Shown one piece after another: positions 29,916 through 64,000 of a DNA stretch of 64,000 nt (positions are counted from its first letter, which is position 1; the number at the start of each line of letters is the position of its first letter). The stretch is from Candidatus Nanopelagicales bacterium. GTDB lineage: Bacteria; Actinomycetota; Actinomycetes; S36-B12; CAIYMF01. The position numbers and the translations under genes are program-made. The stretch covers positions 1-64,000 of the forward strand of contig JAFIHG010000003.1 of assembly GCA_017848795.1 (NCBI GenBank), written 5' to 3'. A model generated the notes under the pieces. That model did no database searches. It had not been told where the DNA came from and worked only from the letters and a program-made list of their open reading frames with translations.

Positions 29916-32150
29916 ATGACCACCACCGACGACCGCGCTGCGGTCGAGTGCCCGAAGGTCGAATTCGACCACCACACCCCCGAGTTCACCGTGGACCCGG
30001 AGTCGCACTACCGCGCCCTGCGCGAGCAGTGCCCGGTGTCATGGACCGACTCGTACGGCGGGTTCTACATCACCACCCGCTATGCCGACGTCGCACGCAT
30101 CGCGCGTGACGACGACACCTTCTCCTCCGCGCGGTTCGACCCGGTCAGCGACGGCACCGCCATCGTCATCCCGCGCGGCCGCGGTCTCGAGCAGTACCCG
30201 ATCGAGCTCGACCAGCCGCGGGCCAAGGTCTTCCGCGACCTCATCAACCCGCTGCTGTCCAAGGAAGCGGTAGCCGAGCTGGTCCCGCTGATCGAGCGCA
30301 ACGTTCGCGAGGTGATGGACGGCTTCGTCGCCGACGGCAAGGTCGACTTCGTCCTGCAGTACACCAACCCCATCCCGACCAAGATCATCGGTGAGTGGCT
30401 CGGCTTCCCCGAGCAGGACTGGGAAGCGATCGCCGGGCCGGTCCACGACATCTTCTCCGCGGCACCCGGCTCGGATCGGGCCCGCCGCGGCGGCGAGGCG
30501 CTGGGCTGGCTGGACGGCCGGATCCGCGATCAGTTCGCGGAGCGGCGGACCGCGCCGCGCGAGGACGTCATGAGCTACCTCGTCTCGCAGACCGACCCCA
30601 CCACGGGAGCGCCGTTCAGCGACGACGATCTGGTGTCCGTGATGTTCCTGCTCATCGCCGGCGGCGTCGACACCACCACGTCCCTCACCGGATCGACTCT
30701 CGTGCACCTGAGCCGGAACCCGGAGGACCGCGAGCGGCTGATCCGCGAACCGGACCTGCTCGAGATCGCCACCGAGGAGTTCCTGCGCAAGTTCGCCCCG
30801 TCCCAGTCGATGGCTCGTACCGTCCTGTCCGACACCGAGGTCGGCGGCTGCCCGATGTCCCCGGGCGACCGCGTCCTGATCCCGTGGGTCGCTGCCAACC
30901 ACGACCCCGAGGTCTACCCGGACCCGGACAAGGTGCAGCTCGACCGGCACCCGCGCAACCACCTGTCGTTCGGCATCGGCATCCACCGCTGCGCGGGCGC
31001 GCACCTGGCCCGGGCGATGTTCCGGGCGATGCTCACCGAGATCCTCACGCGCATCCCGGACTTCCAGGTGCTGGACGAGGGACTGAAGAAGAACGAGTCG
31101 GTCGGCAGCCAGACCGGGTGGGACGCCATACCTGCGGTGTTCACGCCTGCCGCGCCACTGGGTACCGCGAGCCTGGCCAAGCCGGCGAGCTACTTCGAGA
31201 CGCGCAAGGTGACCCTCGCCGAGGTGCGCACCGAGTCCGACGGGGTCGTCTCGCTGCGCCTGACGGCCGCCGGTGACGAGCCGTTGCCCGCCTGGGAGCC
31301 GGGCGCGCACGTGGACCTGATCCTGCCCTCGGGCAAGGTGCGCCAGTACTCCCTGTGCGGGCGCTCCGAGGACCGCCACTCCTACCAGGTCGCCGTACTG
31401 CGCGAACCGGCCGGCCGCGGCGGCTCGGCGGAGGTGCACGACGCGCTGCAGTCCGGCCAGACCCTGCAGCTGCGCGGGCCACGCAACCACTTCCGGCTCG
31501 TCGACGCGCCGCGCTACCACTTCGTCGCCGGTGGCATCGGCATCACGCCGATCCTGGCGATGATCCGGGAGGCGGTGCGCCGGGGAGCGGACTGGACGTT
31601 GACGTACGGCGGACGTGCGCGTGCGACCATGGCCTTCGTCGACGAGCTCCTCGCGCTGGGCGAGGACCGGGTCACCCTGGTGCCGCAGGACGAGTCGGGC
31701 CACCCCGACCTGGCGGGCATCCTGCGGGCGCTCCCGGACGGGACGGCCGTCTACTGCTGCGGGCCGGAAGGCCTGCTCGGCGCGCTCGAGCGCGTGAACG
31801 AGGAGCTCGCCGCGCCGTTGCCGCTGTACTTCGAGCGCTTCACCCCTCCAGGCGGGGACAAGGTCGACCCGCTGCCCGACGACGCAGCCCCGTTCGAGGT
31901 CGAGCTGGCCCGGACCGGGCAGACGCTCACCGTGCCGGCGGACCGCACCCTGCTCCAGGTCATCAGCGACGTGGTCTCGGTGCCGTACGACTGCGAGGAG
32001 GGCTACTGCGGCTCCTGCGAGACGCGGGTGCTCGCCGGCGTACCGCAGCACCGCGACACGATCCTCTCCGAGCAGGAGCGTGCCGCGAACCACTCGATGA
32101 TGATCTGCGTGGGCCGGTGCCGGTCCGGCAAACTGACGCTCGATCTGTAG
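29916..32150 (+). CDS. self-sufficient cytochrome P450 (CYP116B-like, P450-reductase-ferredoxin fusion)
   Basis: A 744-residue three-domain monooxygenase. Residues 1-410 are the P450: oxygen-activating I-helix A248-G-G-V-D-T-T-T, K-helix EFLR and haem loop FGIGIHRCAGAH with Cys359. About 425-650 is a phthalate-dioxygenase-reductase-type FMN/NADH domain (RQYSLCGRSED, GGIGITPILAM, YCCGPEGLL). The end is a plant-type ferredoxin with C693-x4-C698-x2-C701-x29-C731. The order matches the CYP116B class, which needs no partner proteins and often removes O- or N-alkyl groups or hydroxylates aromatics. It has its own promoter (29794-29850). Confidence 0.92.
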   Translation: MTTTDDRAAVECPKVEFDHHTPEFTVDPESHYRALREQCPVSWTDSYGGFYITTRYADVARIARDDDTFSSARFDPVSDGTAIVIPRGRGLEQYPIELDQPRAKVFRDLINPLLSKEAVAELVPLIERNVREVMDGFVADGKVDFVLQYTNPIPTKIIGEWLGFPEQDWEAIAGPVHDIFSAAPGSDRARRGGEALGWLDGRIRDQFAERRTAPREDVMSYLVSQTDPTTGAPFSDDDLVSVMFLLIAGGVDTTTSLTGSTLVHLSRNPEDRERLIREPDLLEIATEEFLRKFAPSQSMARTVLSDTEVGGCPMSPGDRVLIPWVAANHDPEVYPDPDKVQLDRHPRNHLSFGIGIHRCAGAHLARAMFRAMLTEILTRIPDFQVLDEGLKKNESVGSQTGWDAIPAVFTPAAPLGTASLAKPASYFETRKVTLAEVRTESDGVVSLRLTAAGDEPLPAWEPGAHVDLILPSGKVRQYSLCGRSEDRHSYQVAVLREPAGRGGSAEVHDALQSGQTLQLRGPRNHFRLVDAPRYHFVAGGIGITPILAMIREAVRRGADWTLTYGGRARATMAFVDELLALGEDRVTLVPQDESGHPDLAGILRALPDGTAVYCCGPEGLLGALERVNEELAAPLPLYFERFTPPGGDKVDPLPDDAAPFEVELARTGQTLTVPADRTLLQVISDVVSVPYDCEEGYCGSCETRVLAGVPQHRDTILSEQERAANHSMMICVGRCRSGKLTLDL

Positions 32151-33210: not shown

Positions 33211-34566
33211 TTGACCCAGACAGTGGCGCCGCACACCCCTGAGGTGATCGGCAACGACTTGGTGGCCGAGGACTGGGAGCGGCTGACGTTCCGGGTCCAC
33301 CGGTCGGCGTACCGCTCGGAGGACGTGTTCCGTGCGGAGCGCGAACGGATCTGGATGACCTCGTGGCTCTACCTCGGCCACGAGACCGAGATCCCGCGGC
33401 CCAACGACTTCAAGTCCCGCGTGGTCGGCGGCAAGCCGCTGATCTTCGTACGCGACGCGCAGGGCCAGATCCGCGTGTGGCTCAACGCCTGTCCGCACCG
33501 CGGCACCATCCTGTGCCGTGAGCCCGAGGGCAACAACAAGCACATCCAGTGCTTCTACCACGCGTGGACGTTCCGCACCGACGGGGAGATCGCGGCGATC
33601 CCGGGGGAGGACGCGTACGACTTCTCCCCGGGCTTCCGGGAGAGCGTGAAGCTGCGGGCGGTGCCGCGGGTGGACACCCACGAGGGGTTCGTCTTCATCT
33701 CCTTCGCCCCCGAGGGTCCGTCGCTGCTCGAGCACCTCGGCAAGGCCGCGGACATCATGACGATGGCCACGCTGCAGGCGCCGGAAGGCATGACCGTGCT
33801 GCCCGGCGTGCAGCGCTACTCGGTCAAGGGCAACTGGAAGCTCAGCGTCGAGAACGCCATGGACGGCTACCACTTCGCCCCCACCCACAACACGTTCGTC
33901 GGCTACCTGCGCGAGACCGGCTACGCGGTCACCGACGACGACCAGTACGCCTACGACCTAGGCGACGGGCACGGCATGCTGCGCCTGACCGGGCACGGCG
34001 GGCGGATCGGCATGATCTGGGAACCGCGCTTCGGCGAGGCCGAGAAGGAGCACACCGAGCAGGTCCGCGCGGAGATGATCGCCCGCCTCGGCGAGGAGCG
34101 GGCGCTGCAGGCCGCGGACGCCAGCCGCATCCTCTACGTGTTCCCCAACCTGATGCTCTTCGACCTCGAGGCGCTCTCGATCCGGCAGTTCGAGCCGGTG
34201 TCCGCCGGTGTCACGGACGTGCGTGCCTGGCAGTACGTGCCGAACGGCGAGCCGGAGGAGACCCGGCAGATCCGGCTGCGCACGATGGCCAGCTTCATCG
34301 GACCCGGCGGGCTCGCGACGCCGGACGACATGGAGGCCTACGAGGCGGTGCAGCGCGGCATCGAGGCCACCAAGGGCGACGACCGCGGCTTCAACGACTG
34401 GAGCGACATGTCCCGCGGCATGATCTCCGAGGTGCGCGGGGAGCAGGGCCGCTCGATCGACGAGGGCGCGATGCGATCCTTCTGGCGCGCCTGGAGCCGC
34501 GCGGTCGGTCCCGTCGAGTCCGACGACCGCCCCGGCAGCACGAGCACGACAGGAGCGAACCGATGA
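33211..34566 (+). CDS. Rieske ring-hydroxylating dioxygenase, alpha subunit
   Basis: A 451-residue catalytic subunit. The Rieske [2Fe-2S] ligands are C94-x-H96-x17-C114-x2-H117 (NACPHRGTILC; CFYHAW). The mononuclear iron site is in NAMDGYHFAPTH with D218, H221 and H226. The family adds O2 to aromatic rings to give cis-diols, or catalyses N- and O-demethylation. TTG 33211 is supported by AGGAGG 8 bases upstream. The stop overlaps the beta-subunit start (ATGA). No dedicated reductase follows; electrons could come from ferredoxin systems elsewhere, for example 59008-60682. Confidence 0.92.
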   Translation: MTQTVAPHTPEVIGNDLVAEDWERLTFRVHRSAYRSEDVFRAERERIWMTSWLYLGHETEIPRPNDFKSRVVGGKPLIFVRDAQGQIRVWLNACPHRGTILCREPEGNNKHIQCFYHAWTFRTDGEIAAIPGEDAYDFSPGFRESVKLRAVPRVDTHEGFVFISFAPEGPSLLEHLGKAADIMTMATLQAPEGMTVLPGVQRYSVKGNWKLSVENAMDGYHFAPTHNTFVGYLRETGYAVTDDDQYAYDLGDGHGMLRLTGHGGRIGMIWEPRFGEAEKEHTEQVRAEMIARLGEERALQAADASRILYVFPNLMLFDLEALSIRQFEPVSAGVTDVRAWQYVPNGEPEETRQIRLRTMASFIGPGGLATPDDMEAYEAVQRGIEATKGDDRGFNDWSDMSRGMISEVRGEQGRSIDEGAMRSFWRAWSRAVGPVESDDRPGSTSTTGANR

Positions 34567-53991: not shown

Positions 53992-55206
53992 TCAGCGTGG
54001 TGCTGCGGGCAGGATCGTGCCGCTGACGTCGCCGAGCTCGATGGTGGTGGCGTCCGGGCCGGGAGCCGTGCCGCGGATGGTGAGGGTGTCGCCGTCCTGC
54101 AGGAAGCTGACCTCGCCGATGCCGTCGAGTTCCAGGGGCGCGGTGCCGCCCCAGGACAGCTCGAGGAACGACCCGCGCTGGTCGGGTTCGCTACCGCTCA
54201 CCGTGCCGGAGGCGTAGAGGTCTCCGGTGCGCAGCGCGGCGCCGTTCACCGTCAGGTGGGCCAGCTGCTGACCCGGTGTCCAGTACATCCCGGCGAACGG
54301 CGGCCGGGAGACGACCACGTCGGTCCCCCCGCGCTGCAGCGAGAGCTCCAGGCGCAGGTCGAGCGCCCACGGGTCCGGGTCCTGCAGGTACGGCAGCACC
54401 GGCGGGTCCTGGGCAGGCGGGGCGACCCGCGCCGCGGCGAGGGCGGCCAGCGGCGTGATCCAGGCGGCGGCGCTGGTGGCGAAGCTCTTGCCGAGGAAAG
54501 GCCCGAGCGGGACGTACTCCCAGGCCTGGATGTCGCGGGCGGACCAGTCGTTGACCAGCACCACCCCGAACACGTGATCGGTCAGCGCCGCTGCCGGCAC
54601 CGGCGTGCCCAGCGTGCTCGGCATGCCCACGACGAAGCCGACCTCCACCTCGACGTCCAGGCGCCGGCTCGGGCCGTACGTCGGGGTCTGCTCCTGGGGC
54701 GCTTTGCGCTGCCCGCAGGGGCGCCGTACGTCGGTGCCGCTCACCACCACGGTGCCGGCCCGACCGTGGTAGCCGATCGGCAGGTGCTTCCAGTTCGGGG
54801 TGAGGGCGTCCCCGTCCGGGCGGAAGATCCGTCCCACGTTGGTGGCGTGGTGCTCGCTGGAGTAGAAGTCGACGTAGTCGGCGACGGTGAAGGCGAGCAC
54901 CGGTGCCGCCTCGGCGACCGGGCGCAGCAGCGCGCCGAAGCGGGTCTGCTGCGCCGGGTCGGTGAACAGCTCGGTCAGATCGCGGCGTACCTGCTCCCAG
55001 ACGGTCGGGCCGGCGACCAGGAACGCATCGAGGGTCGGCCCGGCGAACAGCGCCTCGTGCCCGGGCAGCCGTTGCAGAGGCAGCGCCAGGTCGCCGATCC
55101 GCACCACCGGTCGCGGCGGCTCGCCGGGCCAGGCGAGCACCCCGTACGGCAGGTGGTGCACCCCGAAACCGGGACGAGCGGTGGTGTCCACCCAGCACGC
55201 GGTCAT
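53992..55206 (-). CDS. fahA: fumarylacetoacetase
   Basis: A 404-residue enzyme that splits fumarylacetoacetate into fumarate and acetoacetate in tyrosine/homogentisate breakdown. Landmarks are DYVDFYSSEHHATNVGRIF (catalytic Asp and His), PIGYHGRAGTVVVSG, metal acids in DVEVEVGFVVG, NDWSARDIQAWEYVPLG, FLGKSF and the end YASGTVSGSEPDQRGSFLE. The length is close to the family norm. It overlaps the upstream unknown gene by ATGA (55203-55206). No homogentisate dioxygenase is in view. Confidence 0.94.
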   Translation of the reverse strand: MTACWVDTTARPGFGVHHLPYGVLAWPGEPPRPVVRIGDLALPLQRLPGHEALFAGPTLDAFLVAGPTVWEQVRRDLTELFTDPAQQTRFGALLRPVAEAAPVLAFTVADYVDFYSSEHHATNVGRIFRPDGDALTPNWKHLPIGYHGRAGTVVVSGTDVRRPCGQRKAPQEQTPTYGPSRRLDVEVEVGFVVGMPSTLGTPVPAAALTDHVFGVVLVNDWSARDIQAWEYVPLGPFLGKSFATSAAAWITPLAALAAARVAPPAQDPPVLPYLQDPDPWALDLRLELSLQRGGTDVVVSRPPFAGMYWTPGQQLAHLTVNGAALRTGDLYASGTVSGSEPDQRGSFLELSWGGTAPLELDGIGEVSFLQDGDTLTIRGTAPGPDATTIELGDVSGTILPAAPR

Positions 55207-56270: not shown

Positions 56271-57254
56271 GTGGACCTCGAGATCCCGCCGTGGCTGTGG
56301 GTCGCCACCCTGGCGTTGTACGCGACGCTGTTCACCATCGACCTGCTGGTCGTCGGCCGGCACCCGCACCGGCCGAGCACCCGCGAGTGCGTCGGCTGGC
56401 TCGCCTCGTACAGCGGGATCGCCGTGCTGTTCGGCATCACGCTGTGGTTCTTCGCCGGCCACGAGATCGGGGTGCAGTTCTTCGCCGGCTGGGTGACCGA
56501 GTACAGCCTGTCGGTCGACAACCTCTTCGTGTTCCTGCTGATCATGTCGCGGTTCTTCGTGCCGGCCGCGCTCCAGCAGGCGGTGCTGATGTACGGGGTG
56601 CTCATCGCGTTGGTGCTGCGCGCGATCTTCATCGCGCTCGGTGCGGCCATGATCGCCCGGTTCAGTTGGGTGTTCTTCATCTTCGGGGCGTTCCTGGTCT
56701 ACACCGCGATCAAGCTCGCCACGCAGCGCGACGAGGACGAGGAGTACCACGAGAACCGGCTGGTGAAGACGATCGGTCGCGCGCTTCCCACCACGAACGA
56801 CTTCCACGGCACCAAGTTCCGGGTCACGCTCGAGGGTCGGCGCTACTGGACCCCGATGCTGGTCGTGATGCTGGCGATCGGGACCACCGACCTGCTCTTC
56901 GCGCTCGACTCGATCCCCGCGATCTTCGGCCTGACCCGGATCGCGTACGTGGTCTTCGCCGCCAACGTCTTCGCGCTGCTCGGCCTGCGCCAGCTGTACT
57001 TCCTGCTCGGGGACCTGCTCGACCGACTCGTGTACCTCTCGCTCGGGCTCTCGGTGGTGCTCGGCTTCATCGGGGTCAAGCTGGTGCTCGAAGCGCTGCA
57101 CACGAACTCGTTGCCGTTCCTGAACGGCGGGGACCCGGTGCCGGTACCGGTCCCCTCGACCTGGCTCTCACTCGGGGTGATCGTCGGCGTGCTGGCGATC
57201 ACCGCGGTGCTGAGCCTGCGCGCCTCGGCCCGGGCAGAGGTCGCCGAGCGCTGA
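56271..57254 (+). CDS. TerC-family integral membrane protein
   Basis: A 327-residue membrane protein of the TerC/Alx family, linked to manganese export and tellurite resistance. About 8-9 hydrophobic segments are visible, with the two conserved acidic membrane motifs SLSVDNLFVFLLIMSRF and FALDSIPAIFGLT. The frame is open upstream; GTG 56271 begins right before the first membrane segment, with GGAGG 11 bases earlier. About 200 bases upstream are gene-free and show nothing notable. Confidence 0.88.
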   Translation: MDLEIPPWLWVATLALYATLFTIDLLVVGRHPHRPSTRECVGWLASYSGIAVLFGITLWFFAGHEIGVQFFAGWVTEYSLSVDNLFVFLLIMSRFFVPAALQQAVLMYGVLIALVLRAIFIALGAAMIARFSWVFFIFGAFLVYTAIKLATQRDEDEEYHENRLVKTIGRALPTTNDFHGTKFRVTLEGRRYWTPMLVVMLAIGTTDLLFALDSIPAIFGLTRIAYVVFAANVFALLGLRQLYFLLGDLLDRLVYLSLGLSVVLGFIGVKLVLEALHTNSLPFLNGGDPVPVPVPSTWLSLGVIVGVLAITAVLSLRASARAEVAER

Positions 57255-57320: not shown

Positions 57321-58088
57321 GTGGACCTGGGACTGCAGGATCGCAAGGCGCTGGTGACGGCGGCCACCGACGGGCTGGGGCTGGCGGTGGCGCGTGCGCT
57401 CGCCGCCGAGGGTGCTCACGTCGCGGTGTGCGGCCGACGCGCAGAGGGTGTCGAGGCCGCCGTCGCGCAGCTGCCGGACGGCGTCGGCGTGGTCGGTGAC
57501 GTCACGCACGAGGACGCCGGCCGCATCGTCGACGAAGCGGCAGACCGATTGGGCGGCCTCGACATTCTGATCGTCAACACCGGCGGTGCCGGGATGGGCG
57601 GCATCGTCGAGCAGCAGCCGCAGGCGTGGGACGACGGGTACGCCTCGGTCCTGCGGCCGGCACTCGCGCTCGCCCGGGCCGGAGCCCCTCACCTCCGGAA
57701 GAGCGAGGCCGGGCGCATGGTGTTCGTCACGGCGCGCTCGATCCTCGAGACCTCGCCGGACCTGGCGCTCTCCGGCGTGTTCCGCAGCGGGGTCGCGGCT
57801 GCGGCGCGTGTGCTCGCCGAGGAACTGGCACCGGACGTCCTGGTCAACATCGCGGTGCCCGGCCCGTTCGACACGGGCGGGCTGCAGCGCCGGGAGGAGC
57901 GCCTCGCCGCGATCGAAGGCGTCGACGTGAGCGCGGTACGCGCTAGGCACAACGCGGAGGTGCCGCTCGGACGGGTCGGACGCGCGCACGAGTTCGGTGA
58001 CGTCGTGGCGTTCCTCGCCAGCGCGCGGGCCAGTTTCGTCACCGGCTCGGTGGTGCGGGTCGACGGTGGTGCGGTCCGTGGCTACTGA
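57321..58088 (+). CDS. short-chain dehydrogenase/reductase with altered catalytic residues
   Basis: A 255-residue SDR with a Rossmann start (ALVTAATDGLGLAVARALA), NTGG in place of NNAG, and the family end GSVVRVDGGAVRGY. The usual Tyr-x3-Lys is missing: the aligned stretch GVFRSGVAA has F154 and V158, although S140 in VTARS remains. Such variants form a known but poorly studied SDR branch and may use other residues or bind without reduction. GGGAG 4 bases before GTG 57321. Confidence 0.8.
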   Translation: MDLGLQDRKALVTAATDGLGLAVARALAAEGAHVAVCGRRAEGVEAAVAQLPDGVGVVGDVTHEDAGRIVDEAADRLGGLDILIVNTGGAGMGGIVEQQPQAWDDGYASVLRPALALARAGAPHLRKSEAGRMVFVTARSILETSPDLALSGVFRSGVAAAARVLAEELAPDVLVNIAVPGPFDTGGLQRREERLAAIEGVDVSAVRARHNAEVPLGRVGRAHEFGDVVAFLASARASFVTGSVVRVDGGAVRGY

Positions 58089-58229: not shown

Positions 58230-58991
58230 ATGACCACGCTCATGGACAAGACCGAGTTCCGCGCGGCCCTCGAGGACGCGATCAAGGGCCGGGAGGCGAA
58301 GAACGCATCGTTCAGCCAGGCCTGGGCCGAAGGCAAGCTCCAGCGGCACCACTTCGCCCGCTGGGCCGAGAACCACTACCACTACGTCGGGCCGTTCGCC
58401 GACTACCTCGCGTACATCTACGCGAACATCCCGGACCAGCACACCGAAGCCAAGGACTTCATGCTCCAGAACATGTACGAGGAGGAGCTCGCCGACATCC
58501 GGCACACCGAGCTGCTCATCAAGTTCGCGGAGACGTGCGGCACCACCCGGGAGAAGATCGAGGACCCGGAGAGCATGATGCCGGTGACCCGCGGGCTGCA
58601 GGCCTGGTGCTACGCCACGGCGATGCGCGAGCACTTCGCGGTCGCGACCGCCGCCCTGGTCGTCGGCCTGGAGTCGCAGGTGCCGGCGATCTACAAGAAG
58701 CAGATCGTGCCGCTGCGCGAGGTGTACGGCTTCACCGAGGACGAGATCGAGTTCTTCGACCTGCACATCACCTCCGACGTCGTGCACGGCGAGCGCGGCT
58801 ACCAGCTCGTGCTCGAGCACGCGAACACCCCGGAACTCCAGCAGCGCTGCCTGCAGTTCGTGCGCTGGGGCGCCGGGATGCGGTTCTCCTACACCGCCGC
58901 GCTCTACGACACGTACGTCAAGCCGGACCTCGGCGAACTGTCCGAGACCAAGGTGGACGTCGACGGCGACCTGCACGCCGCGATCGCCTGA
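58230..58991 (+). CDS. haem-oxygenase-like di-iron oxidase (HDO, CADD/PqqC fold)
   Basis: A 253-residue all-helical protein of the TenA/PqqC-like fold. All six ligands of the di-iron HDO group can be read: E85-x6-H92 (EEELADIRH), E148 (VVGLESQ) and H179-x3-D183-x2-H186 (HITSDVVH). Metal-free PqqC lacks this set, so a di-iron oxygenase like CADD, UndA or SznF is more likely. GGAGG 6 bases before ATG 58230. Directly after it come a Rieske protein, a ferredoxin reductase and an aldehyde dehydrogenase, which fits an oxygenase fed by its own electron chain. Confidence 0.82.
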   Translation: MTTLMDKTEFRAALEDAIKGREAKNASFSQAWAEGKLQRHHFARWAENHYHYVGPFADYLAYIYANIPDQHTEAKDFMLQNMYEEELADIRHTELLIKFAETCGTTREKIEDPESMMPVTRGLQAWCYATAMREHFAVATAALVVGLESQVPAIYKKQIVPLREVYGFTEDEIEFFDLHITSDVVHGERGYQLVLEHANTPELQQRCLQFVRWGAGMRFSYTAALYDTYVKPDLGELSETKVDVDGDLHAAIA

Positions 58992-59007
58992 CAGGACGGG
59001 GGACGCA

Positions 59008-59406
59008 GTGGTGGTCGACGACGCGGCACGGGTGAGGGCGCCCGAAGGGGAGGCGCCCGCCCCGTCGTCGGGTGGGTCCTGGGTCGAGGTTGCGACCGTG
59101 AAGGAGCTCGCCCGCCACAAGAAGAAGCTGGTCGAGGTGGCGGGCGAGCCGATCGCGCTGTTCTACGCGGACGGCGCGGTCTCGGCGATGTACGACGTGT
59201 GCATCCACAAGGAACGCTCGCTCTCCAAGGGCATCGTGATGGGCGGCAAGGTGATCTGCCCCGGCCATCAATGGATGTTCGACGTCGACACCGGTTGGTG
59301 CGAGGAGGAGGAGCGCTGCCAGCCGAGCTATCCGGTACGCGTCGACGACGACGGTGTCGTCTACGTCGAACCGCGTCAGCGGATCGCTCGCACCGCCGAC
59401 GACTGA
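59008..59406 (+). CDS. Rieske [2Fe-2S] ferredoxin
   Basis: A 132-residue soluble Rieske protein with C65-x-H67-x16-C84-x2-H87 (VCIHKER; CPGHQWMF). It lacks the disulphide cysteines of bc1-type proteins, so it is of the low-potential ferredoxin kind that feeds oxygenases. About 22 N-terminal residues look disordered. GTG 59008 follows GGGGGA. The next gene is the matching FAD ferredoxin reductase. Confidence 0.88.
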   Translation: MVVDDAARVRAPEGEAPAPSSGGSWVEVATVKELARHKKKLVEVAGEPIALFYADGAVSAMYDVCIHKERSLSKGIVMGGKVICPGHQWMFDVDTGWCEEEERCQPSYPVRVDDDGVVYVEPRQRIARTADD

Positions 59407-59470
59407 CCTCGTCCGCTGCCGTGCTGTCGACCGGGTCGACAGCCTCGACGTCCCGACGGAGGGGTCGGTC

Positions 59471-60682
59471 ATGACAGACACCGTTGTCGCGGTCGGCGCC
59501 GGCCAGGTGTCCGCCGTGCTGGCACGCACGCTGCGGCGGCGCAAGTTCGACGGGCGCATCGTGCTGGTGGGCGCCGAGCCGCACCGGCCGTACCAGCGCC
59601 CGCCGCTGTCCAAGGAGTACCTCGTCGACGGCGACGACGAGGACCTGTACCTGCTGCCCGAGCAATGGTGCGCCGACAAGGACGTCGAGCTGCTGCTCGG
59701 CACGCCGGTCACCGGGCTCGACGTGGCGGGCCGGAGTGTGACGCTCGCCGACGGTCGGACCATCGGCGCCGACGCGATCGTGCTCGCCACAGGGGGACGC
59801 GCCCGCCGGCTGCCGGACGTCGAGGGTGATCGCATCCTCTACCTGCGCACGCTCGACGACGCAGGGCGTCTCGACCAGCTGCTGCAACCGGGGGCACGGC
59901 TGGTCGTGGTGGGCGGCGGGTTCATCGGCTCGGAGGTCGCCGCCGCCGGCCGCGCCCGCGGCGCCGAGGTCACCCTCGTCGAGATGCTCGAACAACCCCT
60001 CGCCCGGGTGCTCGGCACTCAGCTCGGCGCGGTCTGCGCCCAGGTGCACGTGCGCGGCGGCGTGCAGCTGCGCCTCGGGCAGCCGGTCGAGTCGATCGTG
60101 CAGAGCGGCGACGTGGTGCGGGTCCGGGTGGGCGACGAGACCCTCGAGGCCGATGTCGTCGTCGTCGGCGTCGGCATCGAGCCGAACGTCGAGCTCGCGG
60201 ACGCCGCCGGGCTCAAGGTCGACAACGGCATCGTCGTCGACGAGCAGCTGCGCACCGGTGCGCCCGGGATCTACGCGGCCGGCGATGTCGCCAACGTCCA
60301 CCACCCGCTGTACGGGAAGTCGCTGCGCGTGGAGCACTTCGACGCGGCCAGCAAGCAGGGCGCGGTGGTGGCGAACAACATCCTGGGGCGCGAGAGCACG
60401 TTCGCCGACCCGTACTGGTTCTGGTCGGACCAGTACGACCTGAACCTGCAGTACACCGGGCACGCGACGAGCTGGGATCGCGTGGTGCTGCGCGGATCGC
60501 TCGACGACCTCGCGTTCACCGCGTTCTACCTCGAGGACGGCGTCGTACGCGCCGCCTTCGCGATAGAGCGCGGCGACGACATCGCGGCCGCCGGGCAGTT
60601 GGTCGCGGCGCAGGCCCGCCCCGACCCGGAGGCGCTGGCCGACGTCGATACCGACCTGTTCGACCTGCTGGAAGGGGAGTAG
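59471..60682 (+). CDS. FAD-dependent ferredoxin reductase
   Basis: A 403-residue NAD(P)H:ferredoxin reductase of the type found with Rieske oxygenases and P450s. FAD motif AVGAGQVSAVLARTLRR (the third Gly reads Ser), YQRPPLSKEYL, NAD motif VVVGGGFIGSEVAAAGR, and FAD-binding GIYAAGDVANV. The C-terminal reductase domain follows (YWFWSDQYDLNLQYTG). GGAGGGG lies 6 bases before ATG 59471. It would pass electrons to the upstream Rieske ferredoxin. Confidence 0.9.
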   Translation: MTDTVVAVGAGQVSAVLARTLRRRKFDGRIVLVGAEPHRPYQRPPLSKEYLVDGDDEDLYLLPEQWCADKDVELLLGTPVTGLDVAGRSVTLADGRTIGADAIVLATGGRARRLPDVEGDRILYLRTLDDAGRLDQLLQPGARLVVVGGGFIGSEVAAAGRARGAEVTLVEMLEQPLARVLGTQLGAVCAQVHVRGGVQLRLGQPVESIVQSGDVVRVRVGDETLEADVVVVGVGIEPNVELADAAGLKVDNGIVVDEQLRTGAPGIYAAGDVANVHHPLYGKSLRVEHFDAASKQGAVVANNILGRESTFADPYWFWSDQYDLNLQYTGHATSWDRVVLRGSLDDLAFTAFYLEDGVVRAAFAIERGDDIAAAGQLVAAQARPDPEALADVDTDLFDLLEGE

Positions 60683-60685
60683 CCG

Positions 60686-62182
60686 GTGACGAGCGACACG
60701 ACCGGGGCCGCCGCTGCGGGCGGCGAGGACGGGAACGACCCCGCGCGCGGCAACTTCATCGCCGGCGCGTGGACGGGCGCGGCGTCCGGCGAGCATTTCG
60801 AGCGGCGCGACCCGGCGGACACCTCGCAGCTGATCGGGCGCTTCCCGGCCTCCGGGCCGGCGGACGTGGACGCGGCGGTGGCCGGGGTCCGCGACGGCTA
60901 CGGCGAGTGGGCCGCGACCGCACCGGAACGGCGCGCGGAGGTCCTCGAGGCGGCGGCCGACCAGCTGGCCCGGCAGGCCGACGAACTCGCCGCCGAGCTG
61001 GTGCGCGAGGAGGGCAAGACCCTCGCCGAGGCGCGCATGGAGGTCAGCCGCACCCCGGCGAACCTGCGCTACTTCGCCGCCGAGGCGGTCCGGCTGCTGG
61101 GCGAGACCTACCCGACGGCGGACGGGGGACTGCTGCTCACGCTGCGCCAGCCGGTCGGCGTGGTCGGGGCGATCACCCCGTGGAACTTCCCGATGAACAT
61201 CCCGTCCCGCAAGCTGGCGCCGGCGCTGGCCGCCGGCAACGGCGTGGTGTTCAAACCGTCCGAGATCACGCCCCTGCTCGGGCAGCGCCTGGTCGAGGCG
61301 CTGCTCGCCGCCGGCCTGCCACCCGGCGCCATCGCGCTCGTGCAGGGTGACGGTGCGGCAGGTGGCGCGCTCGCCGCGCACCCCGACGTCGCCGCCATCA
61401 CGTTCACCGGCTCGACGGCCGTCGGCACGAAGATCCATCACGCCGGCGGGCCGACGCGGCGCACCCAGCTCGAGATGGGCGGCAAGAACGCGGTCGTCGT
61501 CCTCGCCGACGCCGACCTGGACCGCGCGGCCACGCTCATCGCCAAGGGTGCGTTCGGGCTGTCGGGCCAGGCCTGCACCGGCACCAGCAGGGTGGTCGTG
61601 GACAGCGCCGTGCACCAGCCGCTGCTCGAGCGGCTCGTCGCGCTCGCCGAGTCGCGCCGCATCGGCTCCGGCCTGCAGGACGGCGTCGAGATGGGCCCGC
61701 AGGCCACCCGGGCGCAGGCCGACAAGGTGCTCGACTACGTCGCGGTGGGCCAGCAGGAGGGCGCCAAGCTCGTCACCGGTGGGGAGGCTCTCACCGAGGG
61801 CGAGTACGCCCGCGGCCACTTCGTGAGCCCGGCGATCTTCACCGGCGTGACGCCGACGATGCGCCTGGCGCAGGAGGAGGTCTTCGGGCCGCTGCTGGCG
61901 TTGCTGCAGGTCGACGGGCTGGAGCAGGCCATCGAGGTGGTCAACGCGACCGCGTACGGGCTCTCCTCCGGCATCGTCACCTCGGACCTCGCGCAGGCGC
62001 TACGGTTCGCGCGCGAGTCGCAGACCGGTCTGGTGAAGGTCAACCAGCCCACGACGGGCGTTGCCATGAACGCGCCCTTCGGTGGGTTCAAGAATTCGAG
62101 CACCCAGACGTTCAAGGAGCAGGGCGGCCCCACGATGATGCACTTCTACACACAGGAGAAGACGGTCTATGTCAGCAGCTGA
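60686..62182 (+). CDS. aldehyde dehydrogenase 3 (2,5-dioxovalerate dehydrogenase-like)
   Basis: A 498-residue ALDH. Catalytic Cys in LSGQACTGTSRV, Glu in LEMGGKNAVVV, coenzyme loop TFTGSTAVGTKI, and the end FKNSSTQTFKEQGGPTMMHF resembling 2-oxoglutarate semialdehyde (2,5-dioxovalerate) dehydrogenases. It starts 4 bases after the reductase stop and overlaps the next gene by 14 bases, so it belongs to the same operon and probably oxidises the product of the di-iron oxygenase. Confidence 0.87.
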   Translation: MTSDTTGAAAAGGEDGNDPARGNFIAGAWTGAASGEHFERRDPADTSQLIGRFPASGPADVDAAVAGVRDGYGEWAATAPERRAEVLEAAADQLARQADELAAELVREEGKTLAEARMEVSRTPANLRYFAAEAVRLLGETYPTADGGLLLTLRQPVGVVGAITPWNFPMNIPSRKLAPALAAGNGVVFKPSEITPLLGQRLVEALLAAGLPPGAIALVQGDGAAGGALAAHPDVAAITFTGSTAVGTKIHHAGGPTRRTQLEMGGKNAVVVLADADLDRAATLIAKGAFGLSGQACTGTSRVVVDSAVHQPLLERLVALAESRRIGSGLQDGVEMGPQATRAQADKVLDYVAVGQQEGAKLVTGGEALTEGEYARGHFVSPAIFTGVTPTMRLAQEEVFGPLLALLQVDGLEQAIEVVNATAYGLSSGIVTSDLAQALRFARESQTGLVKVNQPTTGVAMNAPFGGFKNSSTQTFKEQGGPTMMHFYTQEKTVYVSS

Positions 62183-62549
62183 GGAGGGCGGCGCCCAGTA
62201 CGAGCGGGTCGCCCGGTCCGGTCAGGTCGAGGAAGGCTGGGTACGCCGGTTCTTCGCCGGTGAGGTGGAGTTGTGCGTGGCGCGCCTCGACGGCAAGGCG
62301 TACGCGACGACGAACTACTGCACGCACCTGGACTGCCTGCTGTCCTCGGGCAAGCTCCAGGACGACGGCATCCGCTGCTCCTGCCACGGCAGCGTCTTCG
62401 ACCTCGAGACCGGTGAGGCGATCTACCCGCCGGCCACCGAGCCGATCCGGACCTACCCGGTCAAGGAGGAGAACGGCGAGATCTTCGTCGCGATCTCCGA
62501 GGAGGACCGGGCGCAGAGCGGCCCGCGGCGGCGCGCCCGGCGGGACTGA
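62169..62549 (+). CDS. bc1-type Rieske [2Fe-2S] protein
   Basis: A 126-residue soluble Rieske protein with ligands C51-x-H53-x16-C70-x2-H73. Extra cysteines C56 and C72 (CTHLDC; CSCHGS) match the disulphide pair of high-potential Rieske proteins of cytochrome bc1. No membrane anchor is visible. Its partner in this operon differs in redox class from the Rieske protein at 59008. The end is strongly basic (RRRARRD). It starts inside the aldehyde dehydrogenase gene (14-base overlap). Confidence 0.86.
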   Translation: MSAAEEGGAQYERVARSGQVEEGWVRRFFAGEVELCVARLDGKAYATTNYCTHLDCLLSSGKLQDDGIRCSCHGSVFDLETGEAIYPPATEPIRTYPVKEENGEIFVAISEEDRAQSGPRRRARRD

Positions 62550-62596
62550 GGCACCGTGACCGCAGCGGGTTCGTGGGCGAGCGGACCGGAAACGCC

Positions 62597-64000
62597 GTGA
62601 AGGCCGAGATCGACCCGGCGCCCGTCCGCCGGGCGGTACTGGCCGCCGACGCGATGGTCGTCGCGAGCCACCCGTCGGTCTCGCTCGCGGGGGCGCGCGT
62701 GCTCGCCGACGGCGGCAACGCGATCGACGCGACGCTCGCGATGGCCGCGATGTCCTGGCTGGCGCTGCCGGGCCAGTGCGGTGTCGGAGGTGATGCGTTC
62801 GCCGTCGTACGGGAGCCGGACGGCCGGGTCTGGACGGTCTGCGGCAGCGGATACGGCCCGGCGGGAGGGACCCCGGAGTTCTTCGCCGAGCACGGCCACC
62901 GCAGCATTCCGATGGACGGCCCGCTGGCCGTCGCCGTGCCGGGTGCCATCGCGGCGCTCGACGCGCTCGCGGCCTCCGGGGCGAGTCGCGAGCTGGCGGT
63001 GCTGTGGGAGCCGACAGCGGCGCTCGCCGAACGCGGCATGCCGTGCACCCTCAAGACCCGCGACGACATCGCCGAACGGGTCGCGGCCCTCAGCGGCGAC
63101 CCGGGCACCCGTGAGGTGTTCCTTCCGGACGGTCGGCTGCCCGCCGTCGGCCAGGCGCTGCCGCAGCGCGCGCTGGCCGCGACGATCCGCACCCTCGCGG
63201 CCGACCCGGGCGGGTTCTACCGCGGCGAGCTCGCCGAGCGGGCGGTCGCTGCGCTGCGGGCGGCCGGCGCGCCGTTCGAGGGGGACGAGTGGGCGGCGAG
63301 CGGGAAGGTGTCTGCGCAAGCGGCGATCTCCACGTCGTACGCCGGATACACGGTGCACCAGACGCCGCCGCCGACCCCGGGCTGGATGGTGCTGCAGCAG
63401 GCGGCGCTCTGCGACGGCGTCCTCAGCGGGCAGCCGCTGCTCGGCGTCGGCGCCATCGACCGGATGGCCCGCGCGGCAGCGTTGGCCTTCCGTGACCGGT
63501 GGGAGCGCTGCGGCTCCGACACCGACCGCTGGCAAGAGCTGCTGGCCCCGGAGACGATCGCCGCGCGTCGCGCCGAGCTCGACACCGGAGCGGTGCCCGT
63601 CGTCGGGACGCCGGTGCGGGCCGGCGACACGACCTCCACGGTCGCCGTCGACGCCGAAGGACGCGCGGTGAGCTTCATCCACTCCCTCGCCTTCACCTTC
63701 GGCGCGCGGGTGACGATCCCGGGCACCGGGGTGGTGCTGAACAACCGGCTCGCGCGCGGCGCGTACCTCATGCCGGGGCACCCGAGCGAGGTGCATCCCA
63801 CCCGGCGCCCGCTGCACACCCTCAACGCGTGGATCGTCACCGACGCCGACGGCCGGCTGCGCCACGTCGGCAACACCCCTGGAGGAGACGGTCAGGTGCA
63901 GTGGAACATGCAGCTGCTCTCGCACCTGCTCGACCACGGCCTGGACCCGCAGGAGACGGTCGCGGCGCCCCGCTTCACGGTGTTCCCGGGGAGCGACGCC
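62597..64000 (+). CDS. gamma-glutamyltransferase family protein (3' end beyond window)
   Basis: The first 468 codons of an Ntn-hydrolase of the gamma-glutamyltransferase family, running off the edge. Landmarks are ASHPSVSLAGARVLADGGNA (position of GxGGNA), GQCGVGGDAFAVV, and the autocleavage/nucleophile region GDTTSTVAVDAEGRAVSF with T345 as the likely nucleophile; late NTPGGDGQVQWNMQ is also conserved. Neither a signal peptide nor a lipobox is seen, so it seems cytoplasmic. It may deglutamylate or modify an amine or acid in the operon's pathway. GTG 62597 is the best start. Confidence 0.82.
   Translation, partial: MKAEIDPAPVRRAVLAADAMVVASHPSVSLAGARVLADGGNAIDATLAMAAMSWLALPGQCGVGGDAFAVVREPDGRVWTVCGSGYGPAGGTPEFFAEHGHRSIPMDGPLAVAVPGAIAALDALAASGASRELAVLWEPTAALAERGMPCTLKTRDDIAERVAALSGDPGTREVFLPDGRLPAVGQALPQRALAATIRTLAADPGGFYRGELAERAVAALRAAGAPFEGDEWAASGKVSAQAAISTSYAGYTVHQTPPPTPGWMVLQQAALCDGVLSGQPLLGVGAIDRMARAAALAFRDRWERCGSDTDRWQELLAPETIAARRAELDTGAVPVVGTPVRAGDTTSTVAVDAEGRAVSFIHSLAFTFGARVTIPGTGVVLNNRLARGAYLMPGHPSEVHPTRRPLHTLNAWIVTDADGRLRHVGNTPGGDGQVQWNMQLLSHLLDHGLDPQETVAAPRFTVFPGSDA

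Follow-up and report, generated by a model that had tools for sequence, protein, structure and literature searches.

A predicted haem-oxygenase-like di-iron oxygenase encoded with Rieske ferredoxins and a ferredoxin reductase in a conserved actinobacterial gene module

The stretch of DNA analysed here (the window: 64,000 nt, positions 1–64,000 of contig JAFIHG010000003.1, forward strand, from a Candidatus Nanopelagicales bacterium) encodes towards its end a predicted haem-oxygenase-fold di-metal oxidase/oxygenase (HDO) followed by a Rieske ferredoxin (Rsk1), a ferredoxin reductase that depends on flavin adenine dinucleotide (FAD) (FdR), an aldehyde dehydrogenase (ALDH) and a second Rieske protein (Rsk2). 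The adjacency of the HDO, Rieske and reductase genes is not due to chance, since the same string recurs in the loci compared below. We propose, with a probability of about 0.7, that the module specifies a multicomponent oxygenase in which HDO would be the terminal O2-activating component, and that this oxygenase would open the catabolism of a nitrogen-containing organic acid. Reading frames and Pfam matches confirmed the gene string described in an earlier reading of the same DNA (the original prediction): all five genes lie on the + strand with short spacing, the successive gaps being 16, 64, 3 and -14 bp, so that the start of Rsk2 overlaps the end of ALDH by 14 bp (Table 1).

HDO matches the Pfam family Haem_oxygenas_2, and its nearest relatives of solved structure in phmmer comparisons are NePabS (3e-18) and CADD (5e-15). 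An AlphaFold2 model of the protein (mean predicted local distance difference test score, pLDDT, 84.8) has the seven-helix haem-oxygenase fold and matches CADD best (Z 26.3, 1.7 Å over 212 residues). PqqC structures gave Z 24.6, and the matches to HrmI (Z 22.7), UndA (Z 22.5), FlcD, BesC and PolF fell at Z ∼18–23. In the phmmer comparison, residues E85, H92, E148, H179, D183 and H186 fall on the metal-ligand positions of CADD, and the full set of three histidines and three carboxylates is kept in 85 of 86 HDO sequences. The exception, locus L078 from Geodermatophilus sabuli, has Lys in place of Glu148, reflecting either a sequencing error or an altered metal site. With the metal pocket judged from the fold match and ligand conservation, HDO is predicted to be a haem-oxygenase-like di-metal, probably di-iron, oxidase/oxygenase, as the original prediction had proposed from the six ligands; the structure prediction it had called for returned the expected fold.

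The resemblance to CADD does not extend to the residues on which CADD chemistry depends. Tyr27 and Lys152 of CADD are sacrificed, and Tyr141 and Tyr170 act as relay tyrosines (PMC13108848); the corresponding HDO residues are Ser29 and Gln158, both invariant among the 86 sequences, and Leu147 and Phe175. HDO thus keeps the fold and ligand set of its superfamily, but CADD chemistry is not expected of it. Scores against the NCBIfam models were 96.9 bits for CADD (TIGR04305, cut-off 200) and 54.9 bits for PqqC (TIGR02111, cut-off 240). Identification of HDO as a CADD-type p-aminobenzoate synthase was rejected on the loss of both sacrificed residues and the missed TIGR04305 cut-off, and identification as PqqC on the missed TIGR02111 cut-off and the retention of the complete ligand set. 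The warning that the protein could easily be misannotated as PqqC was right in part: the PqqC model scores far below its cut-off, and the orthologue in Caballeronia is annotated with the generic name 'iron-containing redox enzyme family protein'.

Scanning 84,980 species, each represented by one genome, detected 105 relatives, and the best 80 of the 105 loci were compared. HDO identity is 77–87% across these 80 loci and 89% in a sister genome; the string is carried by Rhodococcus, Mycolicibacterium, Gordonia, Nocardioides, Micromonospora, Streptomyces, Actinomadura, Pseudonocardia, Blastococcus and other genera of Actinomycetota. Among loci with room, meaning those whose contig extends far enough, Rsk1 directly follows HDO in 77 of 79, FdR follows HDO/Rsk1 in 74 of 74, and Rsk2 is present in 70 of 70. 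Of the two loci counted as lacking Rsk1, L068 does have the gene, overlapping the scored end of HDO, and L028 retains a remnant. The order HDO-Rsk1-FdR-(ALDH)-Rsk2 is constant throughout, while the other module genes have been rearranged in several ways. In a second, separately drawn set of 28 loci (27 positives among 248 genomes of the genus that contains Mycolicibacterium, plus one other), Rsk1 and FdR share the HDO strand in 28/28. Flavin and iron-sulfur partner genes are thus conserved beside HDO, and the association, which the original prediction had proposed to look for in other genomes, is not unique to this one.

The gene's spread is patchy, as judged from sampled genomes of the window's class and order. 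Besides the window's own genome, three of 395 sampled from the class carry the HDO gene, and within the order (60 relatives examined) the gene is confined to the window's genus. Its frequency is ∼1% of sampled species in the class and 11% in the genus holding Mycolicibacterium. Contig JANWJC010000009.1 (L012), titled 'Acidobacteria bacterium', is the same contig as G001, which is placed in the window's genus, in a class that also holds Mycolicibacterium; the title looks wrong.

The carrier proteins belong to families that serve Rieske dioxygenases. Rsk1 has the Rieske motif CxH..CxxH, which is kept in nearly all orthologues; its start is uncertain, the first codon being GTG and the conserved part beginning at about codon 25. 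FdR combines Pyr_redox_2 with Reductase_C, the architecture of the reductases of Rieske dioxygenases, and is one of three Reductase_C matches genome-wide. A Rieske ferredoxin and an FAD reductase with Reductase_C together make up a dioxygenase-type carrier set. Rsk2 keeps FdR as its neighbour even where ALDH is placed elsewhere. Distances among the module genes correlate at 0.54–0.91, values that can follow species relatedness and hence were not used as evidence. Profile matches revealed no Ring_hydroxyl_A alpha subunit or P450 inside the module, and the recurrent neighbour genes of the HDO loci included no recognisable Rieske oxygenase alpha subunit. The nearest such matches in the genome lie elsewhere in the window, Ring_hydroxyl_A at 33814–34503, ∼24 kb upstream of the module, and P450 at 30531–31052, ∼27 kb upstream. 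The linkage of the carriers, in a module with neither a Rieske oxygenase nor a P450, supports the original proposal that HDO may be the terminal component of a multicomponent oxygenase.

Loci with a different electron chain provide the strongest indirect argument that HDO itself receives electrons. Plasmids and megaplasmids of Cupriavidus and Caballeronia encode HDO orthologues that are 66–70% identical, flanked by ALDH, HbpS-like and permease genes of the same kinds. No Rieske or FdR match is present in ∼24 kb at these loci; they carry instead a reductase of the Fer2-FAD_binding_6-NAD_binding_1 type together with Fer2 ferredoxins. A divergent actinobacterial locus, G090, encodes an HDO that is 71% identical with an adjoining Rieske gene, along with GGT-fold (γ-glutamyltransferase-fold), ornithine-cyclodeaminase-type, HbpS-like, ALDH and short-chain dehydrogenase/reductase (SDR) genes. 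The type of iron-sulfur partner therefore swaps, yet a partner stays.

The module continues past position 64,000 of the window's contig to ∼70.9 kb, with genes for a GGT-fold amidohydrolase, a Rid protein, an HbpS-like protein, a PucR-type regulator, a major facilitator superfamily (MFS) carrier and a permease. At the 59 loci with full flanks, ALDH, Rid and the PucR-type regulator are each present in 58, HbpS-like in 57, the GGT-fold gene in 56, the MFS carrier in 54, and the permease, which has no Pfam family, in 50. The NCBIfam models nearest to ALDH are 2,5-dioxovalerate and alpha-ketoglutaric semialdehyde dehydrogenase, both below cut-off. The nearest solved chain to the Rid protein, PA0814, belongs to Rid1, a subfamily of demonstrated imine deaminase activity (PMC5619798), and the Arg equivalent to RidA R105 is present in 65/65 Rid sequences aligned with a residue there; the gene product is predicted to be a Rid1-type imine deaminase. 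An ornithine cyclodeaminase/μ-crystallin-type enzyme is encoded in the Cupriavidus and G090 versions; this enzyme and the Rid1-type protein suggest that imine chemistry forms part of the pathway.

In the GGT-fold protein, the Thr nucleophile is conserved across 69/69 homologues. Across the same 69 homologues, the positions of R114, D433 and S462/S463 of E. coli GGT, which we take to be its γ-glutamyl-binding residues, are replaced, and a near-invariant NNRxxRG motif stands in place of the γ-glutamyl contacts. This combination indicates that the protein is probably an amidohydrolase with a specificity other than that of GGT, possibly acting on a carboxylate-bearing amide. We also considered a true γ-glutamyl pathway of the sort that degrades putrescine or isopropylamine, and rejected it: the γ-glutamyl-binding residues are gone, and no γ-glutamyl ligase was found among the recurrent neighbours. 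The permease model (pLDDT 79.7) matches the MleN model at Z 26.4 and NaDC/INDY/NaS and Pho90 at Z ∼20–23. This match to organic-anion transporters suggests that the compound taken up is an organic anion, the fold alone leaving the substrate unfixed. The organic-anion-type permease occurs twice at L050, L056, L059, L062, L064, L069, L071, L076, L081, L083 and L085, mostly mycobacterial loci, where the additional copy is encoded downstream of Rid and shares ∼45% identity with the query.

Taken together, these gene families suggest the following scheme. The organic-anion-type permease would import a nitrogen-containing organic acid. NAD(P)H would reduce FdR, which in turn would reduce one or both of the Rieske proteins Rsk1 and Rsk2, and these would re-reduce the di-iron HDO between turnovers. 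HDO may oxidise an amino- or amido-carboxylate to a product that carries or releases both an aldehyde and an imine; hydrolysis of the imine would fall to the Rid1-type protein, ALDH would oxidise the aldehyde or semialdehyde to a carboxylate, and the GGT-fold amidohydrolase would cleave the amide of a carboxylate-bearing product, with the PucR-type regulator presumably controlling the module. Lactam, pyrroline or pyrrole-carboxylate substrates would fit such a route, with hydroxylation and ring-opening to an amide-aldehyde preceding the ALDH and amidase steps. For the electron chain, support comes from gene families and linkage; metal occupancy, electron flow, the order of the steps and the catabolic role we infer.

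Several points weigh against this proposal. Its catabolic part is drawn from gene content, and the metal content and oxygenase activity of HDO and electron transfer to it are predictions from sequence, fold and gene linkage. Rsk1 and FdR are only ∼52% identical among orthologues, versus 82% for HDO, and no FdR match lies within 20 kb at the G090 locus. The HDOs investigated to date have no need of a protein-based effector (PMC13108848), and several run on chemical reductants or mediators (PMC13185094). In addition, five Ring_hydroxyl_A matches are present in the genome, and these could in principle share the carriers. Some of these points favour the alternative that HDO is self-contained or draws on generic reductants and that the Rieske and reductase genes serve another oxygenase, their adjacency reflecting a shared pathway. 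Candidates for such an oxygenase are at hand, as the Ring_hydroxyl_A matches are accompanied by several P450 matches and two of all these lie in the window; moreover, HDOs other than MboA have been sustained by chemical reductants or mediators (PMC13185094). We regard this alternative as unlikely, because the clustered neighbour genes contain no recurring family of Rieske oxygenases or P450s, the carriers lie directly 3' of HDO in nearly every genome despite rearrangement of the rest, and Cupriavidus, which lacks the Rieske and FdR genes, has another flavin-iron-sulfur reductase in their place.

The module might instead be biosynthetic: by analogy with MboA/MboB, HDO would tailor a natural product derived from an amino acid, and the MFS carrier would export it. 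Characterised HDOs are mostly tied to natural-product biosynthesis (PMC13108848), and the MFS gene is present at most full-flank loci. However, the recurrent neighbours included no recognisable ligase, non-ribosomal peptide synthetase, polyketide synthase or other assembly enzyme, and an organic-anion permease, ALDH, amidohydrolase, imine deaminase and PucR-type regulator with a patchy distribution argue for breakdown; we judge a biosynthetic role slightly less probable still than a separate oxygenase. Two further alternatives concern HDO itself, and both are very improbable. Its closest structural neighbours by sequence (NePabS and CADD) and by fold (CADD) would suit a self-sacrificing p-aminobenzoate synthase to which the other genes supply reductant, but HDO has other residues in place of the sacrificed Tyr and Lys and of the relay tyrosines, the TIGR04305 score is less than half its cut-off, and a permease, ALDH, amidohydrolase and Rid protein are ill-suited to folate synthesis. 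Similarly, PqqC structures are among the fold matches of HDO, as expected of a metal-free cofactor enzyme of the PqqC kind; PqqC, however, does not depend on metal (PMC13108848), whereas HDO conserves the complete ligand set, scores poorly against TIGR02111, and has no other pqq gene recognised beside it in the module.

The proposed HDO-centred oxygenase has one close precedent. About a dozen HDOs have been characterised, mainly in natural-product chemistry (review of March 2026, PMC13108848), and MboA of mangotoxin biosynthesis with its partner MboB was presented by its authors in April 2026 as perhaps the first dedicated HDO-redox partner pair to be characterised (PMC13185094). There, too, an HDO with the three-histidine/three-carboxylate set is encoded beside a dedicated flavin/iron-sulfur partner, and MboB is needed for full conversion by MboA (PMC13185094). 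MboA/MboB is thus a precedent for the present module, and a dedicated HDO redox partner as such is no longer unprecedented. The claim of the original prediction that characterised HDOs have no dedicated operon of this kind consequently survives for the Rieske type, which is still undescribed in the literature searched, and fails for dedicated partners in general (MboA/MboB, PMC13185094). The two systems also differ: MboB unites flavin and Fe2S2 in one reductase, whereas the present module has a separate FAD reductase and two Rieske proteins, and MboA modifies a peptide toxin, whereas the module here looks catabolic. The Fer2-FAD-NAD reductase version in Cupriavidus and Caballeronia is closer to MboB in type.

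Other known systems each share part of the module. CtCADD and NePabS are nearest to HDO by sequence, CADD also by fold, and have the same six ligand positions; they differ in possessing the two sacrificed residues, Tyr and Lys, as well as the relay tyrosines, and PMC13108848 mentions no Rieske carriers in connection with them. UndA, BesC, HrmI, FlcD and PolF have the same fold at 13–18% identity and are natural-product enzymes, with no Rieske chain described for them in the literature examined. Three-component Rieske dioxygenases (HcaCD, AndA) use the same ferredoxin and FAD-reductase families (FdR against the HcaD model, 1e-104; the Rieske ferredoxin against AndAb, 3e-17; both below curated cut-offs) together with an alpha subunit that contains a Rieske centre and mononuclear iron, in whose place the module has HDO. 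GGT-fold Ntn amidohydrolases, of which oxamate amidohydrolase HpxW is presumably an example, share the fold and Thr nucleophile with the module's protein, which differs by its NNRxxRG motif. We found no published account of the operon, of a substrate for it or of an HDO with a Rieske ferredoxin in a search that left aside preprints and most subscription papers, so other work may exist.

Table 1. Positions in the window of the module genes and of the facultative upstream gene
Feature	Position	Strand	Details
HDO, haem-oxygenase-fold di-metal oxidase/oxygenase (predicted)	58230..58991	+	253 aa; PF14518 6.7e-35
Rsk1, Rieske [2Fe-2S] ferredoxin, CxH..CxxH	59008..59406	+	PF00355 3.1e-16
FdR, FAD-dependent ferredoxin-NAD(P)H reductase	59471..60682	+	Pyr_redox_2 8e-63, Reductase_C 3e-26
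ALDH, aldehyde dehydrogenase	60686..62182	+	Aldedh 2e-153
Rsk2, second Rieske [2Fe-2S] protein	62169..62549	+	PF00355 2.6e-18
GGT-fold Ntn amidohydrolase (probable)	62573..64000, continuing to ~64210 on contig	+	PF01019 1e-91, full gene
SDR-family dehydrogenase, upstream of HDO, facultative member	57321..58088	+	

The facultative SDR gene is also present in the sister genome and at L047, L048 and L075. Further upstream lie a gene for a TerC-family membrane protein (56271–57251) and, on the minus strand, a fumarylacetoacetate hydrolase-like gene (53992–55185). A TerC gene is also found near HDO, in varying orientations, at L012, L063, L086, L034, L027, L018 and L019; the TerC family is associated with the handling of metal (Mn), and this neighbour might have a bearing on HDO metallation. 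Downstream, the permease is followed by a DUF1275 membrane protein gene (L092:8902–9708, corresponding to contig ∼70901–71707), and DUF1275-like genes are repeatedly found close to the module, in mycobacterial as well as other loci. Still on the same contig, a CN_hydrolase, a dihydropyrimidinase-like amidohydrolase and a luciferase-like monooxygenase are encoded at L092:14099–17579, a group that resembles a pyrimidine-type degradation set.

HDO belongs to a known enzyme superfamily; the Rieske partner set and the apparently catabolic role are not described for HDOs in the literature searched. We consider it an even chance that the module represents the first Rieske-fed class of catabolic HDO oxygenases, with carriers that differ between Actinomycetota (Rieske proteins and FAD reductase) and Burkholderiaceae (Fer2-flavin reductase), acting in an undescribed pathway for a nitrogen-containing carboxylic acid. 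How HDOs are re-reduced in the cell has been little explored, MboB being the one dedicated partner found in the literature searched (2026, PMC13185094). A module conserved across many species with an intact predicted electron chain makes physiological HDO turnover directly testable, and it leads to the prediction that HDOs contribute to catabolism in the environment, at present under the name of generic iron-containing redox enzymes.

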